From the NCBI RefSeq assembly GCF_020382885.2, contig NC_058510.1:10598862-10662861 (forward strand): a DNA stretch of 64,000 nt. The letters run 5' to 3'. The notes beneath the pieces were generated by a model. It searched no databases. It was not told where the DNA came from and saw only the letters and a program-made list of their open reading frames with translations. The DNA comes from Scatophagus argus (lineage: Eukaryota > Chordata > Actinopteri > Scatophagidae). This document shows positions 10,630 through 64,000 of this stretch, in pieces (within the stretch, counting starts at the first letter, position 1; every line of letters starts with the position of its first letter). The position numbers were made by a program, and so were the translations under genes.

Positions 10630-13600
10630 ATGTCTCATTCCTGGGGATACGGAGCAGACAACGGTGAGGCGCTCACTGCACGCACACGCTACAATATAAG
10701 GTTGACATGACTGAGAAGGGTGTCAAAACCAGCCACACCAGCATGCACTGTGCTGAATGAACGGGAGCACGGGTCACTGCAGTGATTTTCATTCTGCGCA
10801 TTTGGGGGCTTTTTATTTATTTCTTTTTTTTTACGCGTGTTTTAAGCATCTCACAATCCCCGAATGCGCAATTTGTTTCATTCCAGATGTACATATACTG
10901 CACAGATTCGATGAAAATTCTAACAATCACAATTTTATTATTATTATTATTATATCCTTTTAGGACCCGAACAATGGGCTGATAACTTTCCTATTGCCAA
11001 TGGACCCCGCCAGTCTCCCATTGACATCGTACCTGGCGATGCATCATACGACGCGGGGCTGAAGCCGCTCAACCTGAAGTACGATCCCTCCACCTGCCTC
11101 GATATTCTCAACAACGGACATTCCTTCCAAGTGACCTTCATAGATGACTCCGACATCTCAAGTTAGTGTGCCATCAATATTGCATGATTGTAGCAGCTCA
11201 GTGGAGGCGACGTTGCTCGGTATCAACGCCGCATAATTTGATTAAAAAATCTGCATTATTAACATTTCGTCTTAACCTGGAGGGGGGTGGGGGAACTAGC
11301 CTGCTTCTATATTTCCGATTATTACTACAGCGTTTCACACAATAGAGGAGCCAGCCGACCTGTAGGTTTGAAAACAAACACAATCGATGATGGTGATGGG
11401 GGGCCTGTTGGATGGAGAAACCCCCCCCAAAATGCGGCTTTCAGGTTCAGTTCAGTGGTTGTGTGTTAACTCTGCAGCTCTAATGGTCTCCATCTTATAC
11501 ACAACTCGGACATGTTAATATTAAGCTTAATATTTATGGATGCATGAGTCACCCGTCCCAGTTTCTCTGGGGCTCTCAGCAAACAATGATCATAGAATTT
11601 TATTTTATTTCATTGGACTGGTTTCTTGTTTGCTTTTTTTTTTTAATAAAAGAAATACTGACTAGGCTGCAGGGGTTTCATTCAAAGGCGAAGCACAAAG
11701 CACGCAGATACTAATTGAATTGGTAATGTAACCTCTGCTAAACCTTTCCCACGCCGACTCTTTTCTACTCTCAATGAGGTCAAAGGCGCAAAAAACGGAG
11801 GCTACAGGCCAACTCTGCAAACAAACCCTGGCTTAACTATTGGTGTGCTAAACGTGCATGTTAAAGTTAGCAAAAAGATGCCTGATTATTTCCCCCAGAA
11901 TATAAAAAATAGATTGCATTATTATTTTTTTCCACATTTCATCCGATTTCATAGAGAAACAATCATTTGTGCCTCTTTTAAATGTAGGATTTTGAGGATT
12001 TGGGATTGCTTGTCCTTAAGCTGATCTGAGAGTAATGAAGAATATTACATAATCGACACAATCACATGGATTATTTCTAGTGGACAATCATCCTGATGAT
12101 GAAAACACAAAAGCGGTTTTGCAGAATGAGGGCTAGATGAGTTACAGCCTCTTTATTCTGCCTCGCACTGCACTTATTTTCCACACTGTTCCTTCTAAAT
12201 AAGGACATGTTAGGTCTGCGTGTCATCGTCCGTCATGCATCATGTGCGGCCAAGGTGGAAAAGATGAACATCACATTAGTTTTGTAAGTCCTCTACACAT
12301 CAACATTTCTTCAAGACCGGTTCTGCTGCACCTTCTCGTCATTTAAGGATGACTACTGAGAAATGAATATCCTGTGTGGGTGTGTGTGTGTGTCAACATA
12401 GCACCACAAATAGAGCAATATGCAGGATTATCTGCTACTGCTTCAGCCACTTTGTACACTGCAAATAGATACATGATGTAACAATGGAAGGAGGTTTGAT
12501 GTTAACAATACCTGGACATCGTTTCACGCTGAATGTAACCCTCAGCTTGACCAGAGCTTACACAACAGGAACTGAGTCTGTTCCCATGAAATAGGAAGTC
12601 TGCATGTGTGTGTGTGTTTGTTATCTTGTTGATGTGTTTCTTGTGTTTTCATATTTATCAATGTTGCACACTCACACTGACTGCAGCACCACCCACGCTC
12701 AATTGTAGGACGAACTGATGGCAGATGTGTGTTTGTTCTGCAGCTCTGAGAGATGGACCGATCTCAGGGATCTACAGGCTCAAGCAGTTTCATTTCCACT
12801 GGGGAGCTTCAGATGACAGGGGCTCTGAGCACACTGTGGCCGGGACCAAGTATCCTGCTGAGGTAAAGATGTCTCCGTGCTATTAGGGTGATCACAATAT
12901 TCAGATGGGCAGTAACAAGGAGGAAAAGGCAGATTAGAATTTGTTTTGGTTCATGGGTTGGTTGGGTTAAAACGTAATGGGTGGAGACAAAACATTCTCT
13001 GATGCTCAGATTAAAGTTAGGCCCGAGCAGAGAAGAAATTTTCTCTGATTTTTATGTTTAATGTCACATTCACCAGGTCAAAGTGTAGTATCACGAATGG
13101 ATTTCAATATTTCTGGAAATGTATCATATGAATATTATGACTTTTAAAGGGCATTGATTTTGATTGTTCTGTTTCCTGTATTCACAGCTCCATCTGGTGC
13201 ACTGGAATACCAAATACGCAAGTTTTGGTGAGGCTGCTAGCCAGCCTGATGGGCTCGCTGTTGTTGGAGTATTCCTGCAGGTCAATAGCATACTTTTCCT
13301 TTCATTTACCACAAAGCTGCAGTGAATAGTACTGTTTGCTGATGATCGTATGATGACCCTTCAACATTATGTGTATTATTGCTTTTCAGATTGGTGCTGC
13401 AAATGCCAGTCTCCAGAAAGTTCTGGACAGCTTTGATCTCATCAAGGGCAAAGTATGTTTCCATGAAAGGCAAATTATTTTACATTTGATTACTTATGAT
13501 AAAGTATGACTGACCTGCTCCTCATTTTCTGTTACTTTCTTTATTGTTTACAGGGCAAGCAGACCACTTTCGCTGACTTTGACCCGTCTACCTTGCTCCC

Positions 13601-43238: not shown

Positions 43239-45575
43239 ATGCAAGCTATAAGGTGAGACTGTTAACGTTCATAGAAATAAATATGTAGTTTCAGTTGTGC
43301 TCCAACTGTGATAAGTCAATGTCAGATAACTTTTTAACGTCTTAATTGCTAATCATTAATACAAAACAAATATAATTGTATGCAGTACGTGTGTTTGCCT
43401 TGTCTTTGTTCGTGTCACACCCATTCTATTGTTTGAGTTAGTTAAGTAAGCGTGATTTCTCAATATCCCAGAAGTTTCTTTCGGGCTCCCTGGTCCTCTG
43501 CTCAAAGGTTAGATGGCAAAACTGTGGTCATCACTGGTGCCAACGCTGGTATTGGCAAAGAGACCGCCATCGACTTGGCGAAGAGAGGTTGGTTTAGTTT
43601 TAATTAAAATTTCTGAAGTTGCAGATCCCTCTAAGTCCTACGCAATGGACAGTTCTTCAGCTGCTTAATAAGAATATCCCGCCTCACCCAATATACTGAC
43701 AAGGCACCACAAATTTCAATTTGTTTTTATTTATTTATTCATTTAAAAAAATATTAGTAATAGTAATATTATTAAAGTACTGCTCCCATTTTCTTTTGTC
43801 CTGTCTAAATTCCACTTATTGATGCACTTTGCCCATATTATGTGCGTGGTGTTCGTGCTGATGTATTTACTGCTGTTTAATTTATTGCTTTAGGGGCAAG
43901 GGTCATCATGGCATGCCGCGACATGGGGAGAGCACAGGCCGCCGCAAAAGATGTCACTGAGAGTTCAGGCAACAAAGACGTTGTCTGCATGAAACTAGAC
44001 TTGGCAGATAGCAAGTCGATAAGAGAATTCGCTGAAGCCATCAACCAAGGTTAACCAATTTGTTCCTCAGAAAACTCAACACATGAAGAGATTTTACAGC
44101 CGCATTAATATACCTCTGAATGTTCTTACTCGCAGAAGAGCCCAAACTCAACATCCTCATCAACAATGCTGGTGTAATGGCTTGTCCTTATGGGAAAACC
44201 GCAGATGGCTTCGAGATGCAGATCGGTGTCAATCACATGGGTAATAAAACCATGTCGTTATATGGTGCTGTGTTCATATACAATCTATTTTAGATGAACT
44301 TCTGCAGATATTTGGTTCTTTCTGTAAATGGACCTGAGTTTTCTGGACCTTTATACATATATAGGCATCGCTTTAACAGGGATTTTCATCTAATCCTTTC
44401 ACAGTCACCTGTATGTAGTCTTCTATTATACGCCGCTATTTAGCAGTAATGTCCTTTTGCTGTTAAATATTTATTGATGGATTAGAGCTTTCCAAGCAAA
44501 CCCTCACCTGAGTGTCCAGAACACATTCTTCCTTAAATATTACTTATTCAGTGAGATACTGTGCTCTCAAACACTTAATTTGAAAATGAAGGTAATTCCC
44601 TTTTTGCTCCAGGTCACTTCCTGTTGACATATTTGTTGACTGACCTGATTAAGAAATCGGCACCAGCCAGGATCGTCACAGTGTCTTCCATGGCTCACTC
44701 CTGGGGTCCCATCAACCTCGAAGACATTAACAGTGAGAAGAGATATGACAAATGGAAAGCCTACTACCAGAGCAAGCTAGCCAATGTCCTCTTCAGTCGC
44801 TCTTTGGCTAAGAGACTAGAAGGTATGCAGTATATTTATATCTCATATTTGGTGAGGAAGACTGTCAGATAAGGTGGAAATGGCCTTTTGTTCTATTATT
44901 CGTACACTGTTTCATTCACGTTGTACAGTTATCACATACTGATTGGTCTTTCAGGCACAGGTGTGACGACATATTCCCTCCACCCTGGAGTCATCCAGAC
45001 TGATTTATGGCATCATCTGAGTGGCATTGAACAGTTTTTCATAAAGATGGCCAGACCCTTCACCAAAAACTCTGTGCAGGGAGCTCAGACCACCATTTAC
45101 TGTGCAGTGGAACCATCATTGGAGAAAGAGAGCGGTGGATACTACAGGTACACTAAACATTTAGACAGTACCTTGCAGCCTACCCATCAGCAACATCTGA
45201 TGCCATTTGAGGTCAAGTTGAACTTTTTCACTGCAGATTGGTTTCCGTAAATAATAATGAAGAAGCCTTGATCAATTTGCAGCTTCTTGGTGGCATCCTG
45301 ACCCCAAAATCGGAACCACTGGGGTGTTATTCAATATAGCAATTAAACTGTCTAAAGAATGATACTTAGAACAACATAAAATACTCAAATATATATGAAT
45401 CTTGCAGGACCAGACTGAGCATATGAAAGAGATCTCTTATGAGCTGCTCATCACACATGTCTTTCATTACAGTGACTGTGCTCCTGCCGATTGCTCAGCG
45501 GCCGGTAAAGACGACGACCTGGCGCAGAAGTTGTGGGAGCTGAGCTGTCAGCAGCTGTCGATAACGTGGGAATGA
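43239..45575 (+). CDS. rdh12l: Retinol dehydrogenase 12-like SDR, tandem copy 1, 298 aa
   Basis: This is a short-chain dehydrogenase/reductase of the RDH11-14 type, which interconverts retinal and retinol, and lipid aldehydes, with NADP(H). Exons: 43239-43252, 43472-43587, 43894-44049, 44136-44240, 44613-44822, 44955-45147, 45473-45575 (14, 116, 156, 105, 210, 193, 103 bases; 897 in total). Visible motifs are the cofactor-binding TGANAGIG at 26-33, NNAG at 105-108, catalytic Ser at 155-156, and Tyr181/Lys185 in YYQSK; LHPG at 209-212 leads into the substrate-binding segment. The C-terminus LSITWE resembles the GIRWE end of human RDH12. The N-terminus is shorter than in human RDH12 and has no obvious transmembrane anchor, so membrane attachment is uncertain. 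It starts MQAIR, as I recall for zebrafish rdh12l. A copy in the same orientation lies 1.4 kb downstream. Family assignment is firm; the true substrate is unknown. Confidence 0.92.
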
Positions 45576-46941: not shown

Positions 46942-49900
46942 ATGTCGGGTACAAGGTGAGAACACCTTCCGTTCATAGAAATATCCCTACTCTAAATTAT
47001 GTACTTTTAGTTGAGCTCCAATGGTACGTCTAATTTAAGATAGCTTTTTAACCAGTTATTTGCTACCTAAGCAAATCATCAAAGAAAGTTTTCTTTGTTT
47101 TAGCTGAGACCAAACTAGTACATGTTTTTGTAATAAGTGTGTTTGTTTTGTCGTTGTTCATGTTACACCCATTTTGTTGATTGAGTAAGCGTGATTTCTC
47201 AATATCCCAGAAGTTTCTTTCGGGCTCCCTGGTCCTCTGCTGAAAAGTTAGATGGCAAAACTGTGGTCATCACTGGTGCCAACGCTGGTATTGGCAAAGA
47301 GACCGCCATCGACTTGGCGAAGAGAGGTTGGTTTGTCTGAAATATAAAGCTACAGTTTAAATTAAATCTTCTGAAGTTACACCTCATCCTCACATAAACA
47401 ACACAGAACTTTTTTTTTTTTTTTTTGCTTTTTTTTTTTTTTTGCTTAGTCATAGTGACTTGAGCCAACTTTCTTGTAGGCCAAATGTAATATTTTTGGA
47501 TATGTTGCTAATGTAGTAATAATAATGATAATAACAATAATAATAATATTAATAACAATAGTACTTTGAGTTTTGTACTGCAGTCACAACAATACTGCAT
47601 CAGATGAGGGAGTATAGAAATATCACATTCAGCTCCTCAGGTAATTCAATCTATTGTACTCACTGTCATCTTAACATTTGTTTTGCATTAAATTGTGAAC
47701 CAGTAAATGCACACATAAAAAGGGAACACAAATATTAATGTGTATTGTATTTCACTTTATTTTTATGTCTGATTTGTTTGTCAATTTAGGTCTTCTGTGA
47801 TACAAAACTGTGGTTAAATAAAATACAGCCTAAAATTGACAAAGGTTTTATTAAAATCTTGACATATTCAATGAAAAAGGGGCACTTGTTACATTAGAGT
47901 CATAATGCAAATAGTATCAGACTTCAACAACACCCAGCTCTATTAAAGTTTCCAAAGTTTAAAGAAAATGCAACAACAACAACAACAATAAATATTTTAT
48001 TGTTTTGATTTTAGACATGCAGGAGAAACAAAGAAATGCATGTCTAATTTGAATCTACTTGAACCTATTTCTCGACCTGAACAACCTGCAGTGCAGTGAA
48101 GGTGCAGTTGAAGGTCCAGTATGCAGGATTTAAGGGATCTATTGACAGAAACACATGAAAATGATAACTTGTGCTATCTTAACTGCTAAGACATATACAT
48201 GCTATAAAACAATACACAAATATTTCTACATAATTGTTGATATTGTAAGGTACCCCCAATGTACCCCCCCGCCGATTAGCAGCCATGCGGTGTACTGATG
48301 TGTCTAGGGTTTTTGTAGTGAAGGGTAGAAAGCTGAAAGGAGTCTGTCTGTGTACATAGCAGTTGAAACATTAGAAGAATAAAGTTTGCTTCCTTGGTTC
48401 AAATTATGGAGCCTTACATTTTTATTTTATTATTTTCATAAATATTGGCTTAACTTCTAATCTTCTGCTACAGTTTTTATCAACATGAAGATGTCATTTG
48501 AGGTCTCTTCTGTGACCTTCCTTCACGTTCATCCTTTACATTTGTGCTGTGGGTGTCCAGTTCACCATGTGGCATTGCCTTGTTTCTGATGAGCAGAACG
48601 AACGAACCAAACAGAGAGGGCCTTTCTTGTTTTTCACATCTTTAGCAGCTCTTGTAGGTTCTCCTGAGGCAAGTGGCGTTCAAATGGTTGCAGTTCACAA
48701 CCTCACCGCTAGATGACAATAAATCCTGTACATTAGATAATTCTATAGCTGCTTCATATCATTTTAGATTTTATAAAACAATTCACTTTTGAAACTCCTG
48801 CTTCACACAGTATACTGACATGACATAACAGATTTGAGGGTTGAAATCTGCATGCAACACCTTGTTTAAACCCTAAACTGGTCACTGTAATATTATAAAA
48901 ACAGTGACGATTCAATTTGTCCAGGTATGAACATCCTCTCTGAATTCTCTTTTCTGAAATACGGTGCAGAGCATCACATACACATTTTGATGATGGGGTG
49001 CTCTTTGCCCATATGACGTGCGTGTCTGCGAGTGCACACACAACACCGGTTTAGTAAGACATTGTTCGTGCTGTTGTATTTCACCGCTGTTTATTTTTCT
49101 GCTTTAGGGGCAAGGGTCATCATGGCATGCCGCGACATGGAGAGAGCACAGGCCGCCGCAAAAGATGTCATTGAGAGTTCAGGCAACAAAGACGTTGTCT
49201 GCATGAAACTAGACTTGTCAGATAGCAAGTCGATAAGAGAATTCGCTGAAGCCATCAACCAAGGTTAACCAATTTGTTCCTCAGAAAACTCAACACATGA
49301 AGAGATTTTACAGTCGCATTAATATACCTCTGAATGTTCTTACTCGCAGAAGAGCCCAAACTCAACATCCTCATCAACAATGCTGGTGTAATGGCTTGTC
49401 CTTATGGGAAAACCGCAGATGGCTTCGAGATGCAGATCGGTGTCAATCACATGGGTAATAAAACCATGTCGTTATATGGTGCTGTGTTCATATACAATCT
49501 ATTTTAGATGAACTTCTGCAGATATTTGGTTCTTTCTGTAAATGGGCCTAATTGTATCGAAGTAATCGTTTCGATTTTCGGTCATGTTAGACTGTGAACA
49601 TCAGTAAATTACTGCTGGTCTAAGGTTTGCTTTTATGTCTCAAGACTGAGGTCTCAGGGCATTCAAAACAGTCCCCATACCTGCACGTAAATGTCCACTA
49701 GGAGGCAGAAGTATATTGTTTTTCCCCTTGCAAGTGCCAACTTGCACTTAATTTTGTTGTAACATTTTTAATACTTAATTTGAAAATTGTTTTTGGTCAT
49801 TTGGGACTAACTTGCTTCAACTGTAATTATTTTATAATTATATGGTATAATTAGAATTCAATTTATACATACATAGCCCTCACTTTAACAGGGATTTTCA

Positions 49901-51344
49901 TTTAATCCTTTCACAGTCACCTGTATGTAGTCCTCTATTATACGCCGCTATTTAGCAGTAATATCCTTTTGCTGTTAAATATTTATTGATGAATTCAAGC
50001 TTGTTGTACTGATATCGCATAAGGCAAATTTGTAAGATAAAGACAAGTCTTTATCACCCTGCCATCAGAACATTTGTCCCTGCCAAGGTTACGATGTACC
50101 ACACATATCTTTCCCCCAATGTAAATTTAGTCACTGAAAATCCATGCTGTTTATCTTTTTGATGAACATAAAGACAGCCTGGTTACCATAAACAAGTCTC
50201 ACACTGCAAGCCCAAAGGTTTTTTAAATACCCTATGAGTAGGTAATGCTTGAACTTAAAATTAAGAAAAAAATATTCATTTGCGAAGAAATAGATCTGAT
50301 TGACCACTGAATGATTGATTGAATCATTGAGTGATTAAATGGACACTGACCACTGTAAAACTTGCTCCAATTTGTAGCTGTCTAGTTATTATGCTTCTTA
50401 GTCCAAGCAACCATTATATCTGGATGAAAGTTCTAGTGTTTTTAGCATCCCATTCTTCTGAAACAGCTGTTGACTTCCACCCAGAATCTTACTTATATTT
50501 AACAGTTCATTCTGTTTTTAAGTTGGTTTTTTGTTTTTTACGTTTACTTTTTGCTCCAGGTCACTTCCTGTTGACATATTTGTTGATTGACCTGATTAAG
50601 AAATCGGCACCAGCCAGGATCGTCACAGTGTCTTCCATGGCTCACTCCTGGGGCTCCATCAACCTCGAAGACATTAACAGTGAGAAGAGATATGACAAAT
50701 GGAAAGCCTACTCCCAGAGCAAGCTAGCCAATGTCCTCTTCACTCGCTCTTTGGCTAAGAGACTAGAAGGTATGCAGTATATTTATATCTCATATTTGGT
50801 GAGGAAGACTGTCAGATAAGGTGGAAATGGCTTTTTGTTCTATTATTCGTACACTGTTTCATTCATGAGCATTAATCACATACTGATTGGTCTTTCAGGC
50901 ACAGGTGTGACGACATATTCCCTCCACCCTGGAATCGTTAAAACAGAATTATCGCGTCATATGAGTGGCGTTCAAATGTTTCTCTTAACGATGCTCAAGC
51001 CCATTAGCAAAAACTCTGTGCAGGGAGCTCAGACCACCATTTACTGTGCAGTGGAACCATCATTGGAGAAAGAGAGCGGTGGATACTACAGGTACACTAA
51101 ACACTGGCCTCCTGACCTCAGAATCGGAACCACTGGGGTGTTATTCAATATAGCAATTAAACAGTCTAAAGAATGATACTAGACTGAGCATGTGAAAGAG
51201 ATCTCTTATGAGCTGCTCATCACACATGTCTTTCATTACAGTGACTGTGCTCCTGCCAATTGCTCAGCGGCCGGTAAAGACGACGACCTGGCGCAGAAGT
51301 TGTGGGAGCTGACCTGTCAGCAGCTGTCGATAACATGGGAATGA
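46942..51344 (+). CDS. rdh12l: Retinol dehydrogenase 12-like SDR, tandem copy 2, 298 aa
   Basis: Exons: 46942-46955, 47211-47326, 49108-49263, 49350-49454, 50560-50769, 50899-51091, 51242-51344, with the same lengths as in copy 1. The protein has the same [12 protein letters not shown], Ser and Tyr/Lys (YSQSK) catalytic set, so it should be active. By hand count it differs from copy 1 at about 31 of 298 residues, 17 of them within residues 213-237. Exon 4 is identical and introns 3 and 5 nearly so, which points to recent duplication or gene conversion. Introns 2 (1781 bases) and 4 (1105 bases) are much longer than in copy 1 (306 and 372) because of insertions. The N-terminus begins MSGTR instead of MQAIR. 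The downstream neighbour is a LINE and then the polyketide synthase gene, same strand. Confidence 0.92.
47409..47570. repeat. Poly(T) tracts and AAT-rich simple repeat in SDR copy 2 intron 2
   Basis: Two long T runs between about 47409 and 47445 and an imperfect AAT/AAC run at about 47516-47565, absent from the matching intron of copy 1. They account for part of the intron's extra length. Confidence 0.8.
48114..48736. mobile_element. Non-autonomous inverted-repeat DNA element (MITE-like) in SDR copy 2 intron 2
   Basis: The left end ('tatgcaggatttaagg') and right end ('caataaatcctgtacatta') are imperfect inverted complements. The right part carries the blocks 'acaacctcaccgctagatga' and 'cttgtaggttctcctgag', which I recognise from a very common teleost dispersed element. 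It has no coding capacity. It is absent from SDR copy 1, so it inserted after the duplication or was removed from copy 1 by conversion. Confidence 0.6.
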
Positions 51345-52059
51345 GGCATTTAAAATGAAATGCTTCACAGTCTGTTGTGTCTGTTTACTAACTGGTATAA
51401 TACATCTAATCTCTCTACTGACTGCCAAGAAATAATGTGCAAAAGATTATCATTAACGATAGTTTTCTTATTGTCATGTACTTTGCCAACACTTCCTGTA
51501 TGCATTTGTTTTACACACTACCATACATATGTATTTGTATATGGCACTATTTTTAATTAAGGGAATAATAATGGATATTGGATATTTGGCTCAAAAGAAA
51601 ACCCTTACCAGTTACAAGTTAAATGTTTCAAAATGTTTTCCTCCACTTCTGTTTTCTGACACTAAACACAGTGTTGCATTCTATGTTTTTGCTTTTGCCT
51701 TGAACATTATGGATATTTCAATTAATTGAATCAATTGTGGGTAAAGGACTGAACTGAATGTTTTACTGATTGATTATCCTTGTGACAATTCATTTTGTCC
51801 CTTATAATTAATGTTGCAGCATCGAATCAGTGATGAAAAGCTATGATGGAGGTTTTTGGCACAGGCTCTGCAAAATAAGTGCTTCCTGCCCTTGGAATAC
51901 AGTATAAACATTTTTGCCTGCATCTTACTTCTGGTCTTTCTGAGGAACTGAAATGAAATCATTTCATGACTTAAATGCCATTGGTCCAAAGGTAACTTTG
52001 TCACAATTGTCATTTATAGTCATCATTTAATTTAATTTTATTATTCATTTTATTATTTT

Positions 52060-52125
52060 TTTTATTTCATTGTAACAAACCCAATTTACCCCAGTGATCA
52101 ATAAAGTATTCTGATTCTGATTTAT
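52060..52125 (+). repeat. Retroposon 3' tail fragment
   Basis: The block 'gatcaataaagtattctgat' followed by a short TTCTGAT-type repeat is a typical 3' terminus of fish LINE/SINE retroposons. Only the tail is recognisable. Confidence 0.45.
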
Positions 52126-52384
52126 GTGAAAAGAAGCAGAGAATTTATTGAATGTTGTGAAGACATCTGAAGCAGTTTTTCCAGTGCTTTATTGAAGGTT
52201 AGTTTCAACCTCTTTGACCTCAACATATCTAATCAAAACATAAAGTTGAGAAGGTTTTTTTTTTAATTATTACTCATAAGAATATTTTAAACCTGATTTC
52301 AAGGGTCAATGAGTTGATTGCTGGTTAGGGTGTAAGACTGATCCAGAGTCACCCACTGTGTGACATATTCATTTGCTCATCAAA

Positions 52385-55300
52385 TTTCAATTTTCAATTT
52401 CAATTTATTTATATAGCACCTTATACAATCAAAATTGTCTCTAGATGCTTTACAGAGACCCAGAGCTTTACAGAAACCCAGAGAGGATGAAAGAGAGAGA
52501 GAGAGAGAAACATACATGCAGTAAACATCATAAATTACAAGGACAGACATGACAGGTTGTTATAATTGTAATTCTGAAGACTATATATTGTATGTATTTG
52601 TTTTTTAGCTGATATGTTGTTTAAGTTAGTTACAATAGCACTACATAGAAGAACAACATAGGCAGATGTTGATAGTAGACAATGGGTTTGTCAGGCAGCC
52701 GGATGCAGTTCAACATGTAGATCTGGATGGAGAGAGACCCGCAGAGAGATATATAGAGAGAGAAAGGGAGGGAGAGACACAAAACTACGAGGAGAACTGG
52801 ACACACAGTTAGTGACATAACATAATGATTTATATATTGATCTGATGAGGGGAGAGGAAGAAGAGGAGAGGAGGTGGGGGAGTAGAGATGGTGGTGGTGG
52901 TATTGGGGAGGTGGGGGAACTGTTCGGTGGATCATGTCTGTGTCCCCCGGCAGCATAGGCCAATAGCAGCGTAGCTATGATAGAGATTAAAGATTAACAG
53001 TTAGTCAGACCTATTCTACCTGTGGGAACCTGTACCAGCCGTACACACTTTGTTTGAGGCTACTATTGTTTGAGGCTAGCTTTACTAAACAGAAAGGTTT
53101 TAAGTCTAGTCTTAAAAGTGGAGGTGGTGTCTGCCTGTCGAACCCAAATTGGCAACTGGTTCCACAGCAGGGGTGCCTGATGGCTAAAGGCTCATCCTCC
53201 CATTCTACTTTTATGAATTCTGGGACCTGCAAGTAAACCTGCACTCTGTGATCTGAGTGTTCTATTGGGAATATATGGGACTATTAGATCCTGCAGGTAT
53301 GATGGGGCTAGTCAATTTAGGGCCTTATATGTAAGTAGGAGAATTTTAAAATCTATTCTAAATTTTATTGGAAGCCAGTGAAGAAAAGTTAAGATGGAGG
53401 AGATATGATCCCTTTTACTGATTCCTGTCAAAACTTTAGCTGCTGCATTCTGGATCAGCTGCAGGCTATTAATAGAGTGATTTGGACATCCTGATAATAG
53501 TGAGTTGAAGTAGTCCAGCCTGAAAGTAACAAAAGCATGGATAAGTTTTTCAGCATCACTCTGAGAGTGATGACACTCCTAATCTTAGCAATTTACGGAG
53601 GTGGAAGAAGGCGATCTTAGAGATCTGTTTAATGTGATGGATAAATGACACATCCTGATAAGATAATGCCGAGGTTCCTCGCAGTCATACTGGGGGCCAG
53701 AGTAATGCAATCCAGAGAGAGAATATTATCAGCTATTCTAGTTCTAAGATGTTTGGGGCCTAGAACCATGACCTCAGTTTTGTCTGAGTTCAATAATAAA
53801 AAATTGGAGGTCATACAGTCCTTTATGTCCTTAAGACATGGAGCCTGGTTAACGGCTCCGTTTCTTCAGGCTTTAAGGATAAATACAGCTGAGTGTCATC
53901 AGCATAACAATGAAAGTTTATGCCATGTTTCTGAATAATATTTCCTAGAGGGAGCATGTATAAGGTGAACAGGATCGGCCCAAGGACTGAACCCTGTGGA
54001 ACACCGAGGTTAACCCTTAAATATGAAGAGGAAACATCATTAACGTGAACAAAGTGAAATCTATCGGATAAATATGATTTAAACCAGCCTAGTGCTGTCC
54101 CTGTGATCCTAGTCTCATGTTCTAATCTGTGTAATAAAATGCTGTGATCTACAGTAGGTCAATTGTAACTTTAACCAGTGCTGTTTTTTGTGCTGTGATG
54201 GGCTCTGAAACCAGACTGAAACACTTCAAACAGACTGTTTCTGTGCAGTTGATCAGTTAACTGATTAGCAACCACTCTTTCAAGTATTTTAGACAAAAAT
54301 AGGAGGTTGGATATCGGCAGAAGGAAACGCCAATGAAGGGAAAGACGTCCTTGAGGAGCTTAGTTGGGATGGGGTCTAAGAGACATGTAGTTGGGTTAGA
54401 TTTATTAATGCTGGAGGTCAGCTCAGGGAGGTCTATGGGCAGGAAGCTGTCCAGAGATGGAGCAGGACTAAAACAAGTTTCTGGCAGTATGTTGGCTATT
54501 GTGGGGAGATCTTTATTGATTTTTTCTCTAATGTTAGTGATTTTATTAGTGAAGAAACTCATGAAGTCTTCACTACTAAGAGCTGCAGGAATACAAGGCT
54601 CAACAGAGCTGTGACTCTTTGTCAGCCTGGCTACAGTGTTAAAGAAAAAACATGGGTTGTTCTTCTTTTGTTCTATTAATGATGAATACTAAACTGTTCT
54701 GACTTTATGACGGGCCTTTTTATATGTCAATAGACTATATTTCAAGGTCCTCTGGGATTCAACTGATTTGTACCACTTCCTCTCCATTCATCTTGATTTT
54801 TGCTTCAGTGTTCGTATATTTGAATTATACCAAGGAGCTAGCCTCCTATGATTTTTAACCTTCTTTCTCAGTGGGGCAACCATATATAAAACTGTGTAAT
54901 GCTGCAGTGTTGTTGACAAGGCAATCAATTTCTGCAGGAGTAATATTTAAGTCAGTACGCTCTGTTGTATTGGTATATGGTGCTGAAGGGAGCTGTGATG
55001 GGATTGTATCCCTAAATCTGTCTACAGTATTCTCAGAGAGGCATCTGGTATAGTAGACCTTTTTGTTGTGTGCTGTAAAGTCTGTTAGAGTTAGCTCAAA
55101 AGTTAAAAGTGAATGGTCTGGAATGGGAAGGTTTTGAGGGACAACTAACAGGTTCTTAGTTTCTAGGCCGTAGGTGAGAACCAGATCAAGGTGTGGTTAT
55201 GACAGTGTGTTGGTTGATTTACTGTCTGAAGGAAACCTATTGAATCTGAGAGTGAGTTAAAGGCTGACTTAAGACTGAGTCAATATCCATGTGAATGTTG

Positions 55301-55640
55301 AAGTCACCCACTATAATTACTTTATCTGTACTCAGCACTAAACTAGATAAGAAGTCTGAATCAAACTGGGTATAATCATTTCCAGGGTGCCATAAATGTG
55401 TGCACTGAAGTCCTACATCCCCATGCCCACGTATACAAATAATCATTAATGTTTAATGAGGAAAAGAAGCTGGCTATAAGAATCAATAGCATGTGCAGCC
55501 ATGATACCATCATCAAGGGAGAAGGTAGACGGTGAGGATCTATGGATGCACAGGTGCATGACAAACCTGGACTAATTACACAATTTTAAATACACCAGTG
55601 TCTGGATGGGATGGCTGGAAGAAAGAAATGCTGACATAAT
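52385..55640 (-). mobile_element. Degenerate, 5'-truncated L2/CR1-like LINE
   Basis: On the minus strand, 5' to 3', relics appear in the expected order: an APE-type endonuclease part with the GDFNIH motif (within 55237-55446) and a DHSLLTFEL-like endonuclease C-terminus (about 55100-55135); a linker and early reverse transcriptase part with CLLDPIPTKLLK (within 54257-54562); the [11 protein letters not shown] block; and the catalytic YADD (complement of 53895-53906) followed by TQLYL. Further relics include LNSDKTEVMVLGPKHL (53629-53814) and an RT C-terminal region down to about 53010. Frameshifts and stops separate these pieces, so it is inactive. The low-coordinate end at about 52385-52540 ('atttatttatatagcacctt') is probably its 3' end. 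Clade naming (L2/CR1/Jockey superfamily) is from memory of related sequences. It ends within about 50 bases of the polyketide synthase exon 1 acceptor. Confidence 0.85.
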
Positions 55641-55682
55641 GATTCAGTAAAGATTTTTCTTTCTCAGTGATGTTCAGTCAGA

Positions 55683-58600
55683 ATGGAAGAAGATGAAGAT
55701 GGTATTGCAGTGGTAGGCATTGGATGCAATTTTCCAGGCGGTGAGACATTTGAATTCAGGAACTTATGCATTGGTTTGGTTTGTTTCACGTTTGTCTATG
55801 TGTGAGTGTTAATAGTCAGATTTGCCATTTCAGTTTTCTCTTTCACAGCATGCAATAAGATAAATGAAAAGTTTCTCTGAAAGTGTAGAAAACTGAAATA
55901 CAAAAAAAAAAAAAAGACAAACTGTATCATTTCAACATTATCACATCAATAGATTAAAACGAGTTCACTTTAGACCTGGAAACTTAACGACCATCAAGGT
56001 TTGAAAAAAATCAGTCCTCGCTGATTTTATCAAGGATGTTGTTCTTAATTAAATTATTAAAGTTCCTGCGGCCAAATTACGCATTTCATTTCATAAAATA
56101 AGCTCGACCCTTTTAACAATCATTTTGTGTTTGCAAATGCAGGGAATCATGTATTTACAAATATCTTAATGCAAACTGCAGGCGTTTCTTTTCTGATCTA
56201 CCGACTAAAGTTTATAGAACCACAATTGTGCTTTAACCCTTTCCAACCAGGAGAAGGACTTGACAATTTCTGGAAAGTTCTGATAGATGGAAGAAACTGC
56301 ACTGTGCCAATTCCCAGAAAGCGATTTGATTTAGCCAGCTGGTATGATCCTGATGACAACAAAGCGGGTAAATCCCGCACAGCCAAGGCTGCTCTCATTG
56401 ATGGGTATGTTCTTTAAACCGTATTCTGCAACCTATTTAATTAAGTACTTAATTGGCTTGGGCCTCTAACTATGCATTGTTTTATTAGGGGTAAAAGAAA
56501 ACTGGGTTATTGAGACATCTGAACATTTTTGGGACATATTCTTGATGACAATAAATATATGAATAGAAATGTTGATGCTCTCTTCTTTTCAACATACGGA
56601 TTTTCAAAGCAACACAAGGTTAAAAAAAGACAAGGATAAATATGAGAAAATACAGAAAAACCATGTAACTCATGATATAAAGACTTTCCTCACAATATAA
56701 ACTCAGCTCTGGACTAGCTTAAAAGTGGTGTACAGGAAGCATCTTCTTCATTTTTTAATCCTCTCACATTGTCAGTACTTAACCCACAACCAACTGAATT
56801 ATGCTGCCATGCAGAGCACTTTTGATTGTCTCAGTTTAAACTATGGTTATCACCAGATTAAGTAATTTCACTTTAGTCAAAGTTTTAAATTATGATGTAT
56901 TCATATGTCGCTAAATTTGATCTTATCTAATCTATTTGAATACTTTCAGGTTCAATGAATTTGACCACAAGTTTTTCGGCATCACTGACAATGAAGTGGA
57001 GCAAATGGATCCTCAACAGAAACAGCTCCTTCAGTGTGTTTACAGGGCTTTGGAGAATGCCGGAATACCAATGGAGGAAGCCAGTGGAACTAGGACAGGA
57101 GTGTTTTTTGGTTAGACAGCGAAAAAGTGTTGTTGTTGCTGTTTTGTGTAACAGTAGAAATAATGCCCCCATTCTGACTAAAGTCCATAGACTTCCAGCT
57201 GATTTTAATTCTTCTATACAATAGTTGTAAATTCCAACTCTGAATAATCTGTATGCAGTAACAGCTGAGTGTACTTTTCTTACCAGTTTTTATGGTGCTT
57301 TTATTACAGGCCTAATGAATAGAGATTATGAAACTAATGCTGTACACTTGCACCCAAGTGTAATCAACCACTGGACTGGTACAGGACTTGCCATGAGTAT
57401 TGCAGCAAACAGAGTCTCCTACATCTTCAACTTCACTGGGCCCTCACTAACCATAGACTGTGCCTGTTCATCATCTCTTGTGACTCTTCATCTTGCCTGT
57501 CAAGCCATTAAACAAGGTCTGTACAGTCTTCAGTATATCTAACTAAACTCAAAGACAACCTCTAAGGTAACCCTGATGGAAAGCCATGCCCCAATATTGT
57601 GGTTTTATTTACAGAGCTAGATGTTAAAAACAACAAAAATATACCTAAATATATTCATGAAATATGTTTTACCTTATTAGGTGATTGTGACATGGCTGTT
57701 TGTGGAGGAGTCAGCTGTATAATAGAACCAAGAGTGTTTGTTGCTCTCAGCAAGGCCAAGATGATCTCACCTGACGGGACCAGCAAACCTTTCTCCAGCA
57801 GAGCAGATGGTTATGGTAGAGGGGAGGGCTGTGGAGTTGTTCTCCTGAAGCCTCTAAAAAAGGTCAGAATATCCAGAGCAATAAAAATGAAAAATAAAAA
57901 TAATTTCCTTTTTTCATTTTAATTAATATCCAACACTATCAGCTGTTGGACCAACATCAACTCATAACAGAAACTCTTAAAAGAAAATAAAGGAACTAAA
58001 GCAGTCTGTTTCTTTCAGACATCTAAGACTTTAAGACTTTCTGAGCAGTACCCATAGATGTTATATTAGTCAGTAGCATCCTTGTTCTTGTCATCCCTGT
58101 TTCTCTATAGATGAACAAGCCTATAACATTTTCTGGCATTGTTTGGACTGGGGCTAAATAACATAATATTCCATTTCTATGTCACTATGACACATTATTC
58201 AGTGTTAAAAACCTAATCCTTTCATTGTTGCTACATTTTACACTTGCTTTTGCTTCACAGGCTATACAAGACCATGACCATATATGGGGTATCATCACTA
58301 AAACAGCAGTCAACCAAGATGGTCACTCGGTCACTCCGATCACCAAACCTTCTATGACACAACAAGAGAAACTCTTGCAAATAATCTATTCGGCATCTGA
58401 TCTTGCCAATGTCCAGTACATAGAAGCACACGGCACTGGAACCCCAGTTGGAGACCCAATAGAGGCAAGAAGCATCTCCAACGTTATTGCTAAAGCCAAA
58501 CCTCCAGGTTCAGAGACACTCTGGATTGGGTCTGTGAAGAGCAACATTGGACATACAGAATCTGCAGCTGGAGTGGCCGGACTCATTAAGGTACTCTTAA

Positions 58601-61600
58601 TGATGAAGCATGAGACCATTGTTCCCTCAGTTTTCTACTCTGAAGAGACTGCCAGTGTAGATGCCAAAGCTCTGAACATTAAAATTCCCAAGAAAGCAGA
58701 AAAGTGGGAAACCTCTGGTGCAAGAATTGCAGGAGTGAACAACTTTGGCTTTGGGGGTACCAATGCACACGCCATTGTCAGACAGCACAAACAGTCACAC
58801 ATGAAGCAAAAGAGCGATGGCAAACGGAAAAAATATTTTGTTGTGTCAGCTAATTCAACAAAATCTCTTACTATGATGTTGGAACACTCCATAAAACAGT
58901 TAGAAAGCAAAGTTGATCTAGATTCTCTGTTGTACACATCAGCTTGTAAGAGGAGCCATCTAAAGCATAAGTACAGAAAAGCCTTTGTAGTTTCATCTGT
59001 AGTTGATCTTAGACAGAACTTAAGTGCCACTGTAGGCAAAAATATTAGCCAGGCCTACTCAGATCCAAGGTTAGTGTTTGTCTTTTGTGGAAATGGTGTC
59101 ACTTACCATGGCATGTGCAAAGAGCTACTAAAATACGAGCCTGTATTCAGGGATAAGATCAAAGAGATTGCACAACTTTTCCAAAGCCAGAGTACACTGA
59201 ACATTTTGGACACACTTGAGAGTGAGTTTGAGGGTAGTGACTTCAAAAGTCCACATGTTGTCCAACCACTCCTTTTTGCTCTTCAAGTTGGCATTACCAC
59301 CCTACTCTGTCATTGGGGTGTCAAGCCCAATGCAATGCTTGGACACTCCGTTGGTGAAGTTGCAGCTGCTCACTGTTCAGGCCTCTTGTCTCTTGCGGAT
59401 GCAGTAAAAGTGATTTATTTCCGCAGCACTCTCCAAAGCAAAGTCACTGGGGGGAAGATGCTTGTGATCAGCAACATAGATGTATCAAAGGTAACTTCTC
59501 TTCTCTCTCATTACTCTGGTAGAATTTGCTTTGCTGCTTTCAACAGCCCACAGTCCTGCACCCTCACAGGTGATGCAGATGCAATTGAAAGCCTCTATAA
59601 GGAGTTAAGTACCTCAGCCAATGGTCAGAATCTGTTCCTTCGTGTACTGGATGTCCCCGCTGCTTACCACAGCCCCATGATGGACCCAATTCTTCCAGAA
59701 ATCAAGGAGACAATTGGCTCTTTACAGGTGAATGACTTTGACACAGAGCTGTTCTCAACAGTGACAGGCAAGAAAGTCCAGCAGGGTGATTTCTGCACAG
59801 GGGAGTACTGGGCTAGGAACATTCGTGAGCCAGTATTCTTTGAGCATGCTGTAAAGTCAGCAACTAAAGGAAAGAAGAACACAGTCTTTGTAGAGATAGG
59901 GCCAAGAAGGGCACTGCAGAGAAACATCATGGAATCTCTGGGAAATGACACCATTGTCCTTGCATCAGCTCAGCCAGAAAAAGATCATGAATCAATAATG
60001 TCTGTTGTTTGTAAGCTGTTTGAACTGGGTGTCCATGTAAATTGGAAGAGCCTCTACAGAGGGCACGAGACAATGCCACTACCAATTCCGCAATATCAGT
60101 TTGATTTCTCAGACAGAGATGTTATCATTGGAGCAGCACACAAAAACACAGGAAGTAATCATCCTGTGCTTTGCCAGACCGGAAGTGGAAGCAATGTGTT
60201 CAGCTGTGATCTGAAGTCTGACTCATCTTTCTACCTTAAAGAGCACAAGCACAATGATATACCCATCATCCCAGGTGCCTTCTTTGCCGAGTTGGGTCTA
60301 GCCGCATTCATGGCCAGTGCAAAACCAAAGGTACCACTCAACTTCCTAGAGCTTAGTGTCAGTTTTCATAGTCCATTTGTTTTAACTCAGAATGCACCTG
60401 AAATGAAAGTGCAGCTAGAACAAACAGAGGAAGAAACTAGGTTCACGGTACTCTCCACATCTGCAACGTATGCGTCTGGCACAGTGGTTTCAAAAAAAGA
60501 GAGACAGATTGAGGAGCAGTGTATTTCACTCAGCTCCATCTACAGAAGATGCAAATCTGTAATGAGCTCTCATGAGTTCTATGTGAATCTCTCTCAAGGA
60601 GGCTTTCAGTATGGAGATGTCTTCCAGAATAAGGGAGATGTGTATTATGGAAAAGATCTCAAGGAGGCTTTTGCAGTTGTCACAGTGCCAGATGAACTAC
60701 AGTCTCAGTTGCATGACTACTGTATTCATCCTGTTATGCTGGATTTTCTGATGCAGCTTCTCCCAGTGACTGTAGAAAACACCTTTGCTGGCAGACCTGG
60801 ATTTCCTGCCAAAATAGGAAGTCTGACAGTGTTTGAACCCTTGCAGCATCAGATGATTGTCTATCTGAGAGCAACTGATGTGGGTCTTGACCACTTTGAG
60901 GTTTGTGGCTGCTTTGCAGATAAAGAAGGAAGAGTATTGGTTGAGGTAAAGCATGTGATGATCAAGTACCTTGGTAATCACTCTCATGTGGTGGAGGAGT
61001 ATTTCTATCATAATGCCTACAGTGTCATCCCTGATGGCATCGCATCTTCTCATCCTCCTAAGGCCTTGGTCTTCTCTGACTGTATAGGGATCTCTGAAGG
61101 CCTTCAGCAATATTTGGACTCAATGTCTACATATATTTCCTTCACACATGCAGAAGACATCTTGAGCCATGGGTTTCCTTCCCTCTTGTCAAATCTCAAT
61201 ATAACAAATATTGAGAGAAAGTTTGACGAGGTCTTGTTTTTGTGGGGCAAAGAAAACCTCACTTCACTGGAAGCTGAAGTTGTCCTGCAGAATTTGGCGA
61301 GCTGTTGTGAGATTTTCCGCCAAATAGTCCTTGAGCTGAAGCGAATTCACTTTCCAAACTCCATCAGAGCAATCACTTACTGTTCATCTGAAATTACAGT
61401 GAACCGCATAAGTCCAGGTTTTGTTCTTGCTGGCATGACAAGGTCATTTGCTGCAGAGATACCAGATCTTTTATTTCAGCTAATTGATATAAGCACTATC
61501 TCTGCTAAGGACATTGCATCTTTGTCTGAGATTCTAAGATCATGTCCTTGCAGCAAGTACCCAGAGTTGGTGGTAAAAGATGGACTGATTCTGAAACCTT

Positions 61601-63807
61601 CCATTATCCGTACTCAACCCCAAATCATTGACAATTCAGTAGGAAATTTTACCTCTACAATGTTTGAGCCCTGCATCCTTCAGACAGCTGACGCATGTAG
61701 GATGACACAACTGAGTGCCATTCACTTTGACAAGGAAGTCCAGTCAATAAGTGACAAATCAGTTGAACTTTGTGTCACGAAAGTATGTGTTCATTCATCT
61801 GATTACTTCCCTGTCAGTGCATCACATCTGAAATTTGGCCAGACACTGTACTGGGACAAACACTCATCACAGAACCATGAGCTACTGGCTCTTGATTTCT
61901 GTGGTACTATTACAGCAGTCGGAAAAGATGTCAGGAAATTAAAAGTGGGAGACCACGTTGCTTCGTGTTATCCCGTAGTGACAGCCAGCAAGATCAGTGT
62001 TCCAGAGGATGTGTGCTACAGCACCAAGCGGTTCCCATTCCTTCAACAAACACCCTGTGTTTCCTACTTTGTGCTAGCATGGGAGATCCTGCATCGAGCT
62101 TTGCCTAGGACAAAACATAATCTAGGAATTGTTTCCACTGTCCCTGATTCTGCTCTGATGAAAGTCTTGAAACTCACCTCTTACAAGTCAGGTTGGAACG
62201 TGATTGTTGAGACACACTGCAAGGGGTCTTTTGGAGATGTTGATAAAATACATGCATTTGTCATCCTGCCTCCATTTGATGAATCTCTGATTGCTAAAGT
62301 CTGCAACTTTCCAGGCGTCCAACATATTGTCTTGATCTGTCAAACTCAGATTCAGTGTTTGCTTGCTCAGGATATGTTACAAATTGTAGAGGGAAGTGTT
62401 CATGTGAAGACAATTCAGATGCCTGTCATCTTGCAAAAGGGAGCATTGATTGCAGAAAGACCCCACATTTATCACTGGCTGAAGTCCATGAACTTGAGCA
62501 GGAAATTTGCTCTTGAAAGCTTTACCTTTCAGAGTGTGAAATCTAAAAGCATCAAGTGCCTTCATTCAGAGAAAGAACCATCATATTTCAACTCAAAGAA
62601 GCTAGCTGTTGTGGCTCTGGAAAAGGATGTCACCGGTATGCTGACTAACATTCCATTGCTGCCAACAAAAAAGCAGCTTTTCAGAAAAAAAGCAGTGTAC
62701 ATAGTGACAGGTGGTCTTTCTGGTCTGGGCTTTGAAACTGTCAGGTTCATCTCACAAAGAGGGGGTGAGTACATTGTAATACTCTCCAGGAGCAAACCTA
62801 CACCAGATATGCAGCAAAAAATATGTAATGTGGAGAAACAGTGTGGAAACTACATCACTGCCATGGAGTGTGACATATCTGTGTCTGAGTCTGTGCACAA
62901 GGCTATCAGTGTAATTGGCCAGAAATTTCCTGGGTGTCCAATCAGAGGAGTATTTCACAGTGCAGTTGTCTTGCATGACAGGCTGATTGAGAAGCTTGAC
63001 AGATCTCTTTATGAGGAAGTTCTCAAACCCAAAGTAAATGGCGCACTGAATTTGCACAATGCAACACAGCACTGTCAGTTGGATTACTTTGTGTGCTACT
63101 CATCTATCTCAGCTTTTCTGGGAAATGCATCACAAACAAACTATGCAGCAGCCAATGCATTTCTCGACATGTTCTGTCACTACCGGTGCAAATTCGGGCT
63201 GCCTGGACAGTCTATCAACTGGGGAGCTCTAAATCTTGGCCTCCTTTTGAACAAGGAACATTTGCACCGGTTTTTGGAGGCAAAGGGGATGATGGTGTTG
63301 GATGTGGCTGAGATTCATAAAAGTCTGGAGCAATGCCTTGTGCTCAATCGACCCCAACAGGCCGTTTGCAGGTTTAATTTCAGAAACATCAGGTACAACA
63401 TACTCTCTCAAAATGTGGCCTTGACCATGCGCCTCTCCGCACTGGTAGAGGAGGCTTTCGAAAAATCCAGAGAGACAGAGTGTCATACTAAACAAACTGA
63501 GTATGTCTCACCGAAAGAGTATGTTGTCTCTCTGCTTAGTGAGACAACCGGCATGGATGAGAGTGAGCTAAAAGATGAATCACCTTTGTTATCATTAGGT
63601 ATTGACTCCATGCAGGCCATGACTCTGCAGAATCTCATCTTTCAGGAGAGAGGTGTGAATGTGCCTTTGGTGAAGTTGTTGGATCCCAATGCGACACTAT
63701 TAACAGTAGTTGCAATACTGAGTGAAGGAGATGAAGGGAAACATTTCAGTGATAACCCAGAGCCTCATCCAGCTGGAGATAGGAATGATGTTTCTACTAG
63801 ACTGTAA
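55683..63807 (+). CDS. pks1: Animal type I iterative polyketide synthase, six coding exons, 2102 aa
   Basis: A large multi-domain enzyme that builds a polyketide from (methyl)malonyl-CoA units. Exons: 55683-55740, 56251-56404, 56950-57110, 57310-57516, 57681-57862, 58261-63807; splice phases close to 2102 codons plus stop. Domains: ketosynthase about 5-425 with Cys177 (DCACSSS), His311 (EAHGTG) and His352 (SNIGHTE); acyltransferase about 520-840 with Ser617 (GHSVGE) and His724 (AAYHS); dehydratase about 885-1160 with His916 and Asp1082 (DFLMQ); structural KR part about 1180-1370; ER-like region about 1390-1700 without a clear NADPH glycine motif; ketoreductase about 1730-1930 with TGGLSGLG (1737-1744), Ser1868/1869, Tyr1882 and Asn1886; acyl carrier protein about 2005-2075 with Ser2037 (LGIDSMQ). 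There is no thioesterase. An acceptor at 55666-55667 (ttctcag), 15 bases before the ATG, implies an upstream non-coding exon. Fatty-acid synthase is excluded by the missing thioesterase and by PKS-like KS and AT motifs. The product is unknown. Confidence 0.93.
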
Positions 63808-64000
63808 AAATGACAAATGCACATATGGAAATATAAAAATCAACTGTCAGAACACCATATTATTATGATATACTATGATTGGCCACTGCTCTACAACTGC
63901 ATTCTTGTTTTAACACACATGTTCTTATTGCATTTTGTTTATTTTGTTGTCCTTATTGTAAATGTATGGCTCTGTTTATTGTTTTGATTCATTTTGGTAC
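63808..64000 (+). other. Start of the PKS 3' UTR
   Basis: AT-rich sequence follows the stop codon to the window edge. No AATAAA is seen, so polyadenylation is probably beyond the window. Confidence 0.4.

Follow-up and report, generated by a model that had tools for sequence, protein, structure and literature searches.

A probable pks1-type polyketide synthase gene with an enoylreductase remnant and two neighbouring dehydrogenase genes in Scatophagus argus

The window analysed here, a stretch of 64,000 nucleotides from the teleost Scatophagus argus, contains an intact gene for a type I polyketide synthase (PKS). The gene is probably of the pks1 type (medaka OlPKS, zebrafish wu:fc01d11), with a product route that would lead to otolith nucleation. 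According to Pfam and alignment, the enzyme is a single module on one chain with the domain order KS-AT-DH-(dead ER)-KR-ACP. As such, it is a further copy of a known animal PKS and in itself matches the picture already established for medaka and zebrafish. It adds two handles, namely an ER without a recognisable cofactor domain and a neighbouring reductase-like pair for co-expression.

The gene model (Table 1) comprises 6309 coding nucleotides, corresponding to 2102 amino acids and a single terminal stop, with no internal stops and with GT-AG borders at all five introns; the putative splicing is derived from consensus sites, reading frame and homology. Given its base composition, exon 6 would remain open over its length with a chance of about 10^-48. 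Stops number 116 and 122 in its two other forward frames. After exon 6, the longest open frame of the window measures 176 amino acids. The limits proposed in an earlier sequence-only reading coincide exactly with the start and stop codons, and its description of a complete animal type I PKS is borne out by the spliced model, in which KS, AT, DH, KR and ACP are intact. The catalytic residues it had named for these domains were all recovered: positions 177, 311, 352, 617, 916, 1082, 1882 and 2037 are C, H, H, S, H, D, Y and S, each in the expected motif (8/8). The same reading had the enzyme end at the ACP, and no release domain was found with Pfam. Neither a thioesterase nor a methyltransferase gave a Pfam match in the protein, and 30 residues are left after the ACP. 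Its domain list was correct for these five domains and missed the ER remnant in the DH-KR interval.

Table 1. Features of the window, with coordinates counted from its first nucleotide.
Feature	Coordinates	Strand	Basis or remark
Short-chain dehydrogenase gene a, 7 coding exons, 298 aa	43239-45575	+	Pfam adh_short 3.5e-35
Short-chain dehydrogenase gene b, 7 coding exons, 298 aa	46942-51344	+	Pfam adh_short 2e-37
Reverse transcriptase remnant	53823-54158	-	matched stretch only
PKS gene	55683-63807	+	start codon at 55683, stop ending 63807, six exons
PKS coding exon 1	55683-55740	+	gene model; start codon, KS begins
PKS exon 2 (KS)	56251-56404	+	gene model; Pfam ketoacyl-synt on spliced KS
PKS exon 3 (KS)	56950-57110	+	gene model; Pfam
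PKS exon 4 (KS, active Cys177)	57310-57516	+	gene model; residue check
PKS exon 5 (KS)	57681-57862	+	gene model; Pfam
PKS exon 6, 5547 nt, remaining KS through stop	58261-63807	+	gene model; 1848 open codons
Acyltransferase (AT), active Ser617 (GHSVGE)	59074-59946	+	Pfam Acyl_transf_1 1.4e-52; residue check
Dehydratase (DH), His916 and Asp1082	60178-60981	+	Pfam PKS_DH_N and PS-DH; residue check
Pseudo-enoylreductase (ER), both ends approximate	61606-62650	+	Pfam ADH_N only
VSTVPDSAL, at the aligned position of the glycine-rich cofactor motif in ERs	62131-62157	+	alignment
Ketoreductase (KR), Tyr1882, GGLSGLG cofactor motif	62692-63231	+	Pfam KR 4.2e-58; residue check
Acyl carrier protein (ACP), phosphopantetheine Ser2037	63517-63714	+	Pfam PP-binding 7.9e-10; residue check

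Seven of the eight catalytic positions are identical across all seven aligned bacterial synthases, the exception being KR Tyr1882, which is His in two of them (L013 and L033); KS Cys177 is invariant in 7/7 KS rows. The AT specificity motif reads AAYHS, compared with HAFH in five of the seven synthases, and is not clearly of the other type either. At the corresponding site the KR reads LHD, with LDD in 6/7 of the compared synthases and LAD in one.

In the pseudo-ER, the N-terminal ER subdomain is recognisable with Pfam, while the nucleotide-binding subdomain is not. Two ADH_zinc_N models match seven of the eight rows scanned, and the fish PKS is the row without a match. The other rows are bacterial synthases (L001, L004, L009, L013, L014, L030, L033) chosen from those eight loci, out of 35, that had shown an ER motif; the eighth, L025, was left unused. 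Since they were selected for the motif, its presence in all seven does not represent a sample; what they establish is that ordinary ERs are picked up by the Pfam test. The predicted structure of the pseudo-ER has a mean pLDDT of 31.6, which is too low for use. Because the ER has no recognisable cofactor domain, the pseudo-ER predicts a product narrowed to an unsaturated chain, as in birds. The bird MuPKS, whose ER is judged inactive, is described as forming polyunsaturated chains of C14-C18; MuPKS and ApPKS share with the present gene the order KS-AT-DH-ER-KR-ACP and the lack of a release domain, and in some of them the ER is suggested to be inactive (PMC6334511, PMC7036892). Unlike pks1 with its otolith role, MuPKS serves feather pigment. 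The best whole-protein hit of exon 6 was a mycobacterial mycocerosic acid synthase (PDB 9d2z, 357 bits), likewise single-module and without a release domain. When bacterial genomes were first scanned with exon 6, five pattern matches came up, of which none was a relative. Mycocerosic acid synthase has a working ER and uses methylmalonyl.

The probable orthology to pks1, as opposed to another teleost PKS, rests on published facts, a neighbouring gene of presumed RDH12-like type and motif positions. Medaka OlPKS, the product of the ha locus, has 2051 amino acids (2102 here), six exons and the same five Pfam domains, KS, AT, DH, KR and ACP (Hojo 2015, PMC4604110). The 11 N-terminal residues encoded by exon 1 match the MEDGIAVV deduced from the medaka start-codon morpholino. 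The ha allele is a deletion of the KPS triplet at residues 279-281 of OlPKS (PMC4604110); the triplet is found here at 283-285, a shift of +4 that is the same as for Cys177 versus 173, and the intervals between active sites differ by at most 21 residues. At the nucleotide level the sequences differ: the best match to the morpholino target in 55601-63850 has nine mismatches of 25, and all eight published zebrafish pks1 primers differ here by at least four bases of 20-25. Whereas the gene described here has an ER remnant, the accessible text on OlPKS gives no ER (PMC4604110).

The literature documents the associations that the sequence-only reading made with otoliths, the sea-urchin skeleton and bird pigment. 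OlPKS is required for otoliths: mRNAs with point mutations in KS, AT, DH, KR or ACP fail to rescue, apart from a partial rescue of 2 percent with the AT mutant (n=57), while extracts of an OlPKS-expressing fungus do rescue (PMC4604110). In zebrafish, pks1 (wu:fc01d11) adjoins rdh12l, and the nco, csr and vns mutants are without otoliths (Thiessen 2019, PMC6531356).

It is rather unlikely that the gene is instead another teleost PKS, of the OlPKS-2/-3 or si:dkey-61p9.11 type, that is, a tandem or dispersed paralogue with a non-otolith role. The earlier remark that vertebrates rarely keep a PKS was mistaken, as such enzymes are relatively widespread among vertebrates (Lin 2024; Hojo 2015 Table 2), and the teleosts in Table 2 have two to three PKS genes (medaka three, zebrafish two, fugu two; PMC4604110). 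In that table the accessions run consecutively for two medaka proteins and for the fugu pair (PMC4604110), which makes neighbouring copies likely; the window reaches just 193 bases past the stop codon, short of any downstream copy. Moreover, zebrafish si:dkey-61p9.11 is listed there with all five domains unmarked. However, OlPKS-2 and OlPKS-3 are each without a DH active-site residue (PMC4604110), whereas the two DH residues checked are present here, and the dehydrogenase neighbours, presumably RDH12-like, would fit zebrafish pks1. A recently dead pseudogene is very improbable. The reverse transcriptase remnant, which lies 1.5 kb upstream of coding exon 1, would be in keeping with it, but the 6.3 kb of coding sequence are free of stops and frameshifts, and the splice sites, active sites and length of exon 6 disfavour it too.

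Least of all is the gene to be expected to encode a fatty acid synthase (FAS) or a FAS-like animal PKS (AFPK). Among the best 60 of the 108 chains listed, the KS scores 369 bits with CurL, 340 with LovB and 336 with DEBS versus 233-241 with FAS, and most PKS chains outscore animal FAS, although a few do no better (e.g., fungal CTB1, 227 bits). With a FAS KS as query, EcPKS1/2 reach 442 and 406 bits; with the fish KS as query, both fall outside the best 60 of the 108 chains. The FAS traits of a working ER and a thioesterase were both absent from the Pfam matches, the cofactor domain of the ER not being recognisable, and Lin 2024 found no vertebrate AFPK. Clustering of the KS with FAS, which the sequence-only reading had named as contrary evidence, does not occur in the best trees, where the fish KS is joined to fungal LovB (support 83/87 and 76/79.8, both unstarred), but a clade with mammalian FAS is not statistically rejected (p-AU 0.28). 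Both trees also hold FAS in a five-row group with the fish KS, LovB and Nostoc KS (93/93 and 93/94). For these trees, 3/35 loci were dropped because of short KS matches (L025, L026, L034), and the second tree omitted six more, with long branches (L031, L032, L035) or as near-copies (L012, L016, L033). The KS tree alone is not decisive, and it is the scores and domains that disfavour FAS and AFPK.

For the preferred pks1-type enzyme, a route can be proposed in which one PKS protein would act in repeated rounds: the AT would load the extender, probably malonyl-CoA, the KS would condense, the KR would reduce the keto group and the DH would remove water. Because the ER is without a recognisable NADPH domain, double bonds would be retained and, as with the bird PKS, the ACP would carry a conjugated polyenoyl chain. 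An outside partner would then release the chain. Judging by homology to the medaka and zebrafish genes, this lipid-like compound may be secreted into the otic vesicle, where it would start the calcium carbonate nucleation of the otolith. The OlPKS product was sought without success in 2015 (Hojo 2015, PMC4604110), the fish PKS product was still unknown to Lin 2024, and no later report of a fish pks1 product appeared in the literature searched.

In the window, an Rfam search gave no matches at gathering scores, and a script search for other coding exons (segments of at least 75 nt between splice signals with a codon score above 9) in 1-42800 and 51400-55600 returned only one weak candidate, on the minus strand at 11050-11156. 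The two dehydrogenase genes, which the sequence-only reading had missed, lie 10.1 and 4.3 kb upstream of the PKS. Both are intact and are presumably RDH12-like (rdh12l type) by family; the PDB neighbour tested for the dehydrogenase was bacterial only. Known relatives of RDH12-like enzymes handle retinal, a polyene aldehyde. The pair is comparable with the rdh12l beside zebrafish pks1 (PMC6531356); here, two dehydrogenase copies lie upstream. Speculatively, and with low probability, the PKS and the two reductases might form a small vertebrate biosynthetic unit in which the PKS would make a polyenoyl chain and the RDH12-like enzymes would determine the oxidation level of the released, otolith-nucleating aldehyde or alcohol; the copies would differ in substrate range through a 25-codon block. 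This PKS-reductase pairing is the only aspect here that merits a test. In this divergent block, the values for the two dehydrogenase copies (dN 0.41 vs dS 0.45) do not support positive selection. The block itself, 25 codons in which the copies differ, has escaped homogenisation.

The gene model of the polyketide synthase (PKS) gene is identical in span to that proposed in a sequence-only reading, with six coding exons and five GT-AG introns in a window of 40 percent GC. The coding sequence of 6309 nt translates into 2102 aa with one stop, the terminal one, and the large last exon runs for 1848 codons without a stop. All eight catalytic residues named in that reading were present in the protein on a residue check. 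In a Pfam scan of the spliced KS plus exon 6, ketoacyl synthase N and C, acyltransferase, two PKS dehydratase models, KR, and PP-binding scored above their cut-offs, while thioesterase and methyltransferase gave no match; the enzyme was rightly said to end at the ACP, as 30 residues lie beyond the ACP match. A good splice acceptor ends 15 bases 5′ of the start codon, and an upstream 5′ non-coding exon is therefore likely.

Coordinates of the features in the window
Feature	Position	Strand	Remark
PKS gene	55683-63807	+	
PKS exon 6	58261-63807	+	
Short-chain dehydrogenase gene a	43239-45575	+	gene model, upstream of PKS
Short-chain dehydrogenase gene b	46942-51344	+	gene model, upstream of PKS
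Region of the splice acceptor	55653-55682	+	tttctttctcag
Reverse transcriptase remnant	53823-54158	-	RVT_1 7.9e-13 (Pfam), 1.5 kb 5′ of first PKS coding exon
Open frame	54257-54688	-	resembles the remnant by eye; no Pfam match
Open frame	54855-55196	-	resembles the remnant by eye; no Pfam match
Open frame	2251-2595	-	Mcm10 zinc motif, sub-threshold (Pfam E 1.7e-4, 21.8 bits vs cut-off 26.8)

The closest parallel is the medaka PKS of the ha locus, OlPKS, described as a KS-AT-DH-KR-ACP protein of 2051 aa encoded, as here, by six exons (Hojo 2015, PMC4604110). Its active sites at 173, 608, 914, 1859, and 2010 correspond to 177, 617, 916, 1882, and 2037, the residues K, P, and S (279-281) deleted in the ha mutant are KPS at 283-285, and the N-terminus aligns with MEDGIAVV as deduced from the medaka start morpholino (PMC4604110). 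According to the same source, OlPKS is produced transiently in the otic vesicle with an apical location, every active site is required for function, and extracts of an OlPKS-expressing fungus rescue the mutant, yet a product peak is reported as absent. In zebrafish, rdh12l adjoins pks1 (Thiessen 2019, PMC6531356), and here two same-strand short-chain dehydrogenase genes lie upstream. Published zebrafish and medaka primers or morpholinos showed at least four mismatches to 55601-63850 in 10 of 10 cases, one of these oligonucleotides perhaps deriving from untranslated sequence and one carrying a designed change; the window thus belongs to neither of these two species.

Between the Pfam matches to DH and KR lies a gap of about 570 residues, an interval to which the accessible text of the medaka paper assigns no domain (PMC4604110). 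Alignment with seven bacterial synthases, picked because an ER is present, made an ER N-terminal subdomain recognizable in this stretch. ADH_N matched in all eight rows (for the PKS, 23.1 bits against a cut-off of 23.5 in the full scan and 26.3 when the stretch was scanned alone), whereas two nucleotide-binding models matched in every row except that of the window, where the cofactor loop reads VSTVPDSAL instead of the glycine-rich motif. Some bird PKSs are likewise reported to lack the NADPH motif, which has served to account for their polyunsaturated product (PMC6334511). A putatively inactive ER is thus that idea extended to fish rather than a new one, and by this analogy the fish PKS most likely leaves double bonds in place. 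The enzyme would then act as OlPKS does, in an iterative cycle without enoyl reduction, and, since just 30 residues follow the ACP match, would release its product via a partner.

The remaining motifs are suggestive only, and are read by the rules of the PKS field. The AT carries GHSVG with AAYHS (HAFH in five of the seven compared synthases, VASH and VPYH in one each), and its extender is perhaps malonyl-CoA; the KR, with LHD (LDD in six, LAD in one), is perhaps B-type. In the DH motif, Asp920 occupies the position of the textbook Gly, which is found in 3/7 compared synthases; Asp also occurs in one bacterial locus (L004).

Among the best 60 of 108 PDB matches, the window KS scored 369 bits with CurL, 340 with LovB, and 336 with DEBS, against 233-241 for mammalian FAS, although some PKS chains score no higher than FAS (e.g., CTB1, 227). 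With the FAS KS as query, EcPKS1 and EcPKS2 reached 442 and 406 bits, exceeded among the PKSs listed only by 7zma (482), a two-KS chain whose score adds two domains. In a 39-row tree, LovB is the partner of the window KS (support 83/87), FAS (branch 1.75) falls within the same five-row group (93/93), and the row closest to the window KS comes from Nostoc (48 percent identity). The penalty for forcing the window KS and FAS together in a 33-row tree is 2.8 log units (p-AU 0.28); the KS trees thus do not decide between placement with PKS and with FAS. Published trees with animal PKSs set these apart from FAS (PMC4604110, PMC6334511). In the 39-row tree, the KS domains of loci L015 and L016, one on a contig from a Legionellaceae bin and the other on a cyanobacterial one, are near-identical (branch lengths about 0.01), which may reflect recent transfer or a misbinned contig.

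The two dehydrogenase genes, presumably RDH12-like, are both intact at 298 aa, with the bacterial dehydrogenase 3rd5 as top PDB match (193 bits). Of their 31 residue differences, 17 fall within the 25 codons 213-237 of exon 6, where dS is 0.45 compared with 0.014 in codons 1-211. Identity between the copies is 97-100 percent for exons 2-5 and 7, against 169/193 for exon 6 and just 9/14 for the 14-base exon 1. This pattern fits gene conversion sparing the block, or its replacement from a third copy; selection in the block is not shown, because dN about equals dS. The block lies where the conserved SDR core ends on its C-terminal side (adh_short match up to residue 221), a region that serves substrate binding in this family. 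A redox enzyme acting at a step after a vertebrate PKS is plausible, since parrots turn PKS-derived aldehydes into acids with a separate aldehyde dehydrogenase (PMC13405874). Zebrafish embryos with the nco mutation show down-regulation of rdh12l, from which the authors infer local transcription control (PMC6531356). No title among the papers listed in a literature search concerned such a PKS-dehydrogenase pair.

The sequence-only view that vertebrates rarely keep a PKS is contradicted by two surveys, as far as their available text goes: PKSs are relatively widespread among vertebrates, with none seen in placental mammals (Lin 2024, PMC10764717), and are listed for fish, reptiles, birds, and marsupials but for neither frog nor lamprey (Hojo 2015, PMC4604110). 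Elsewhere in the window, the open frame with the Mcm10 zinc-motif match is possibly an exon or a chance frame.
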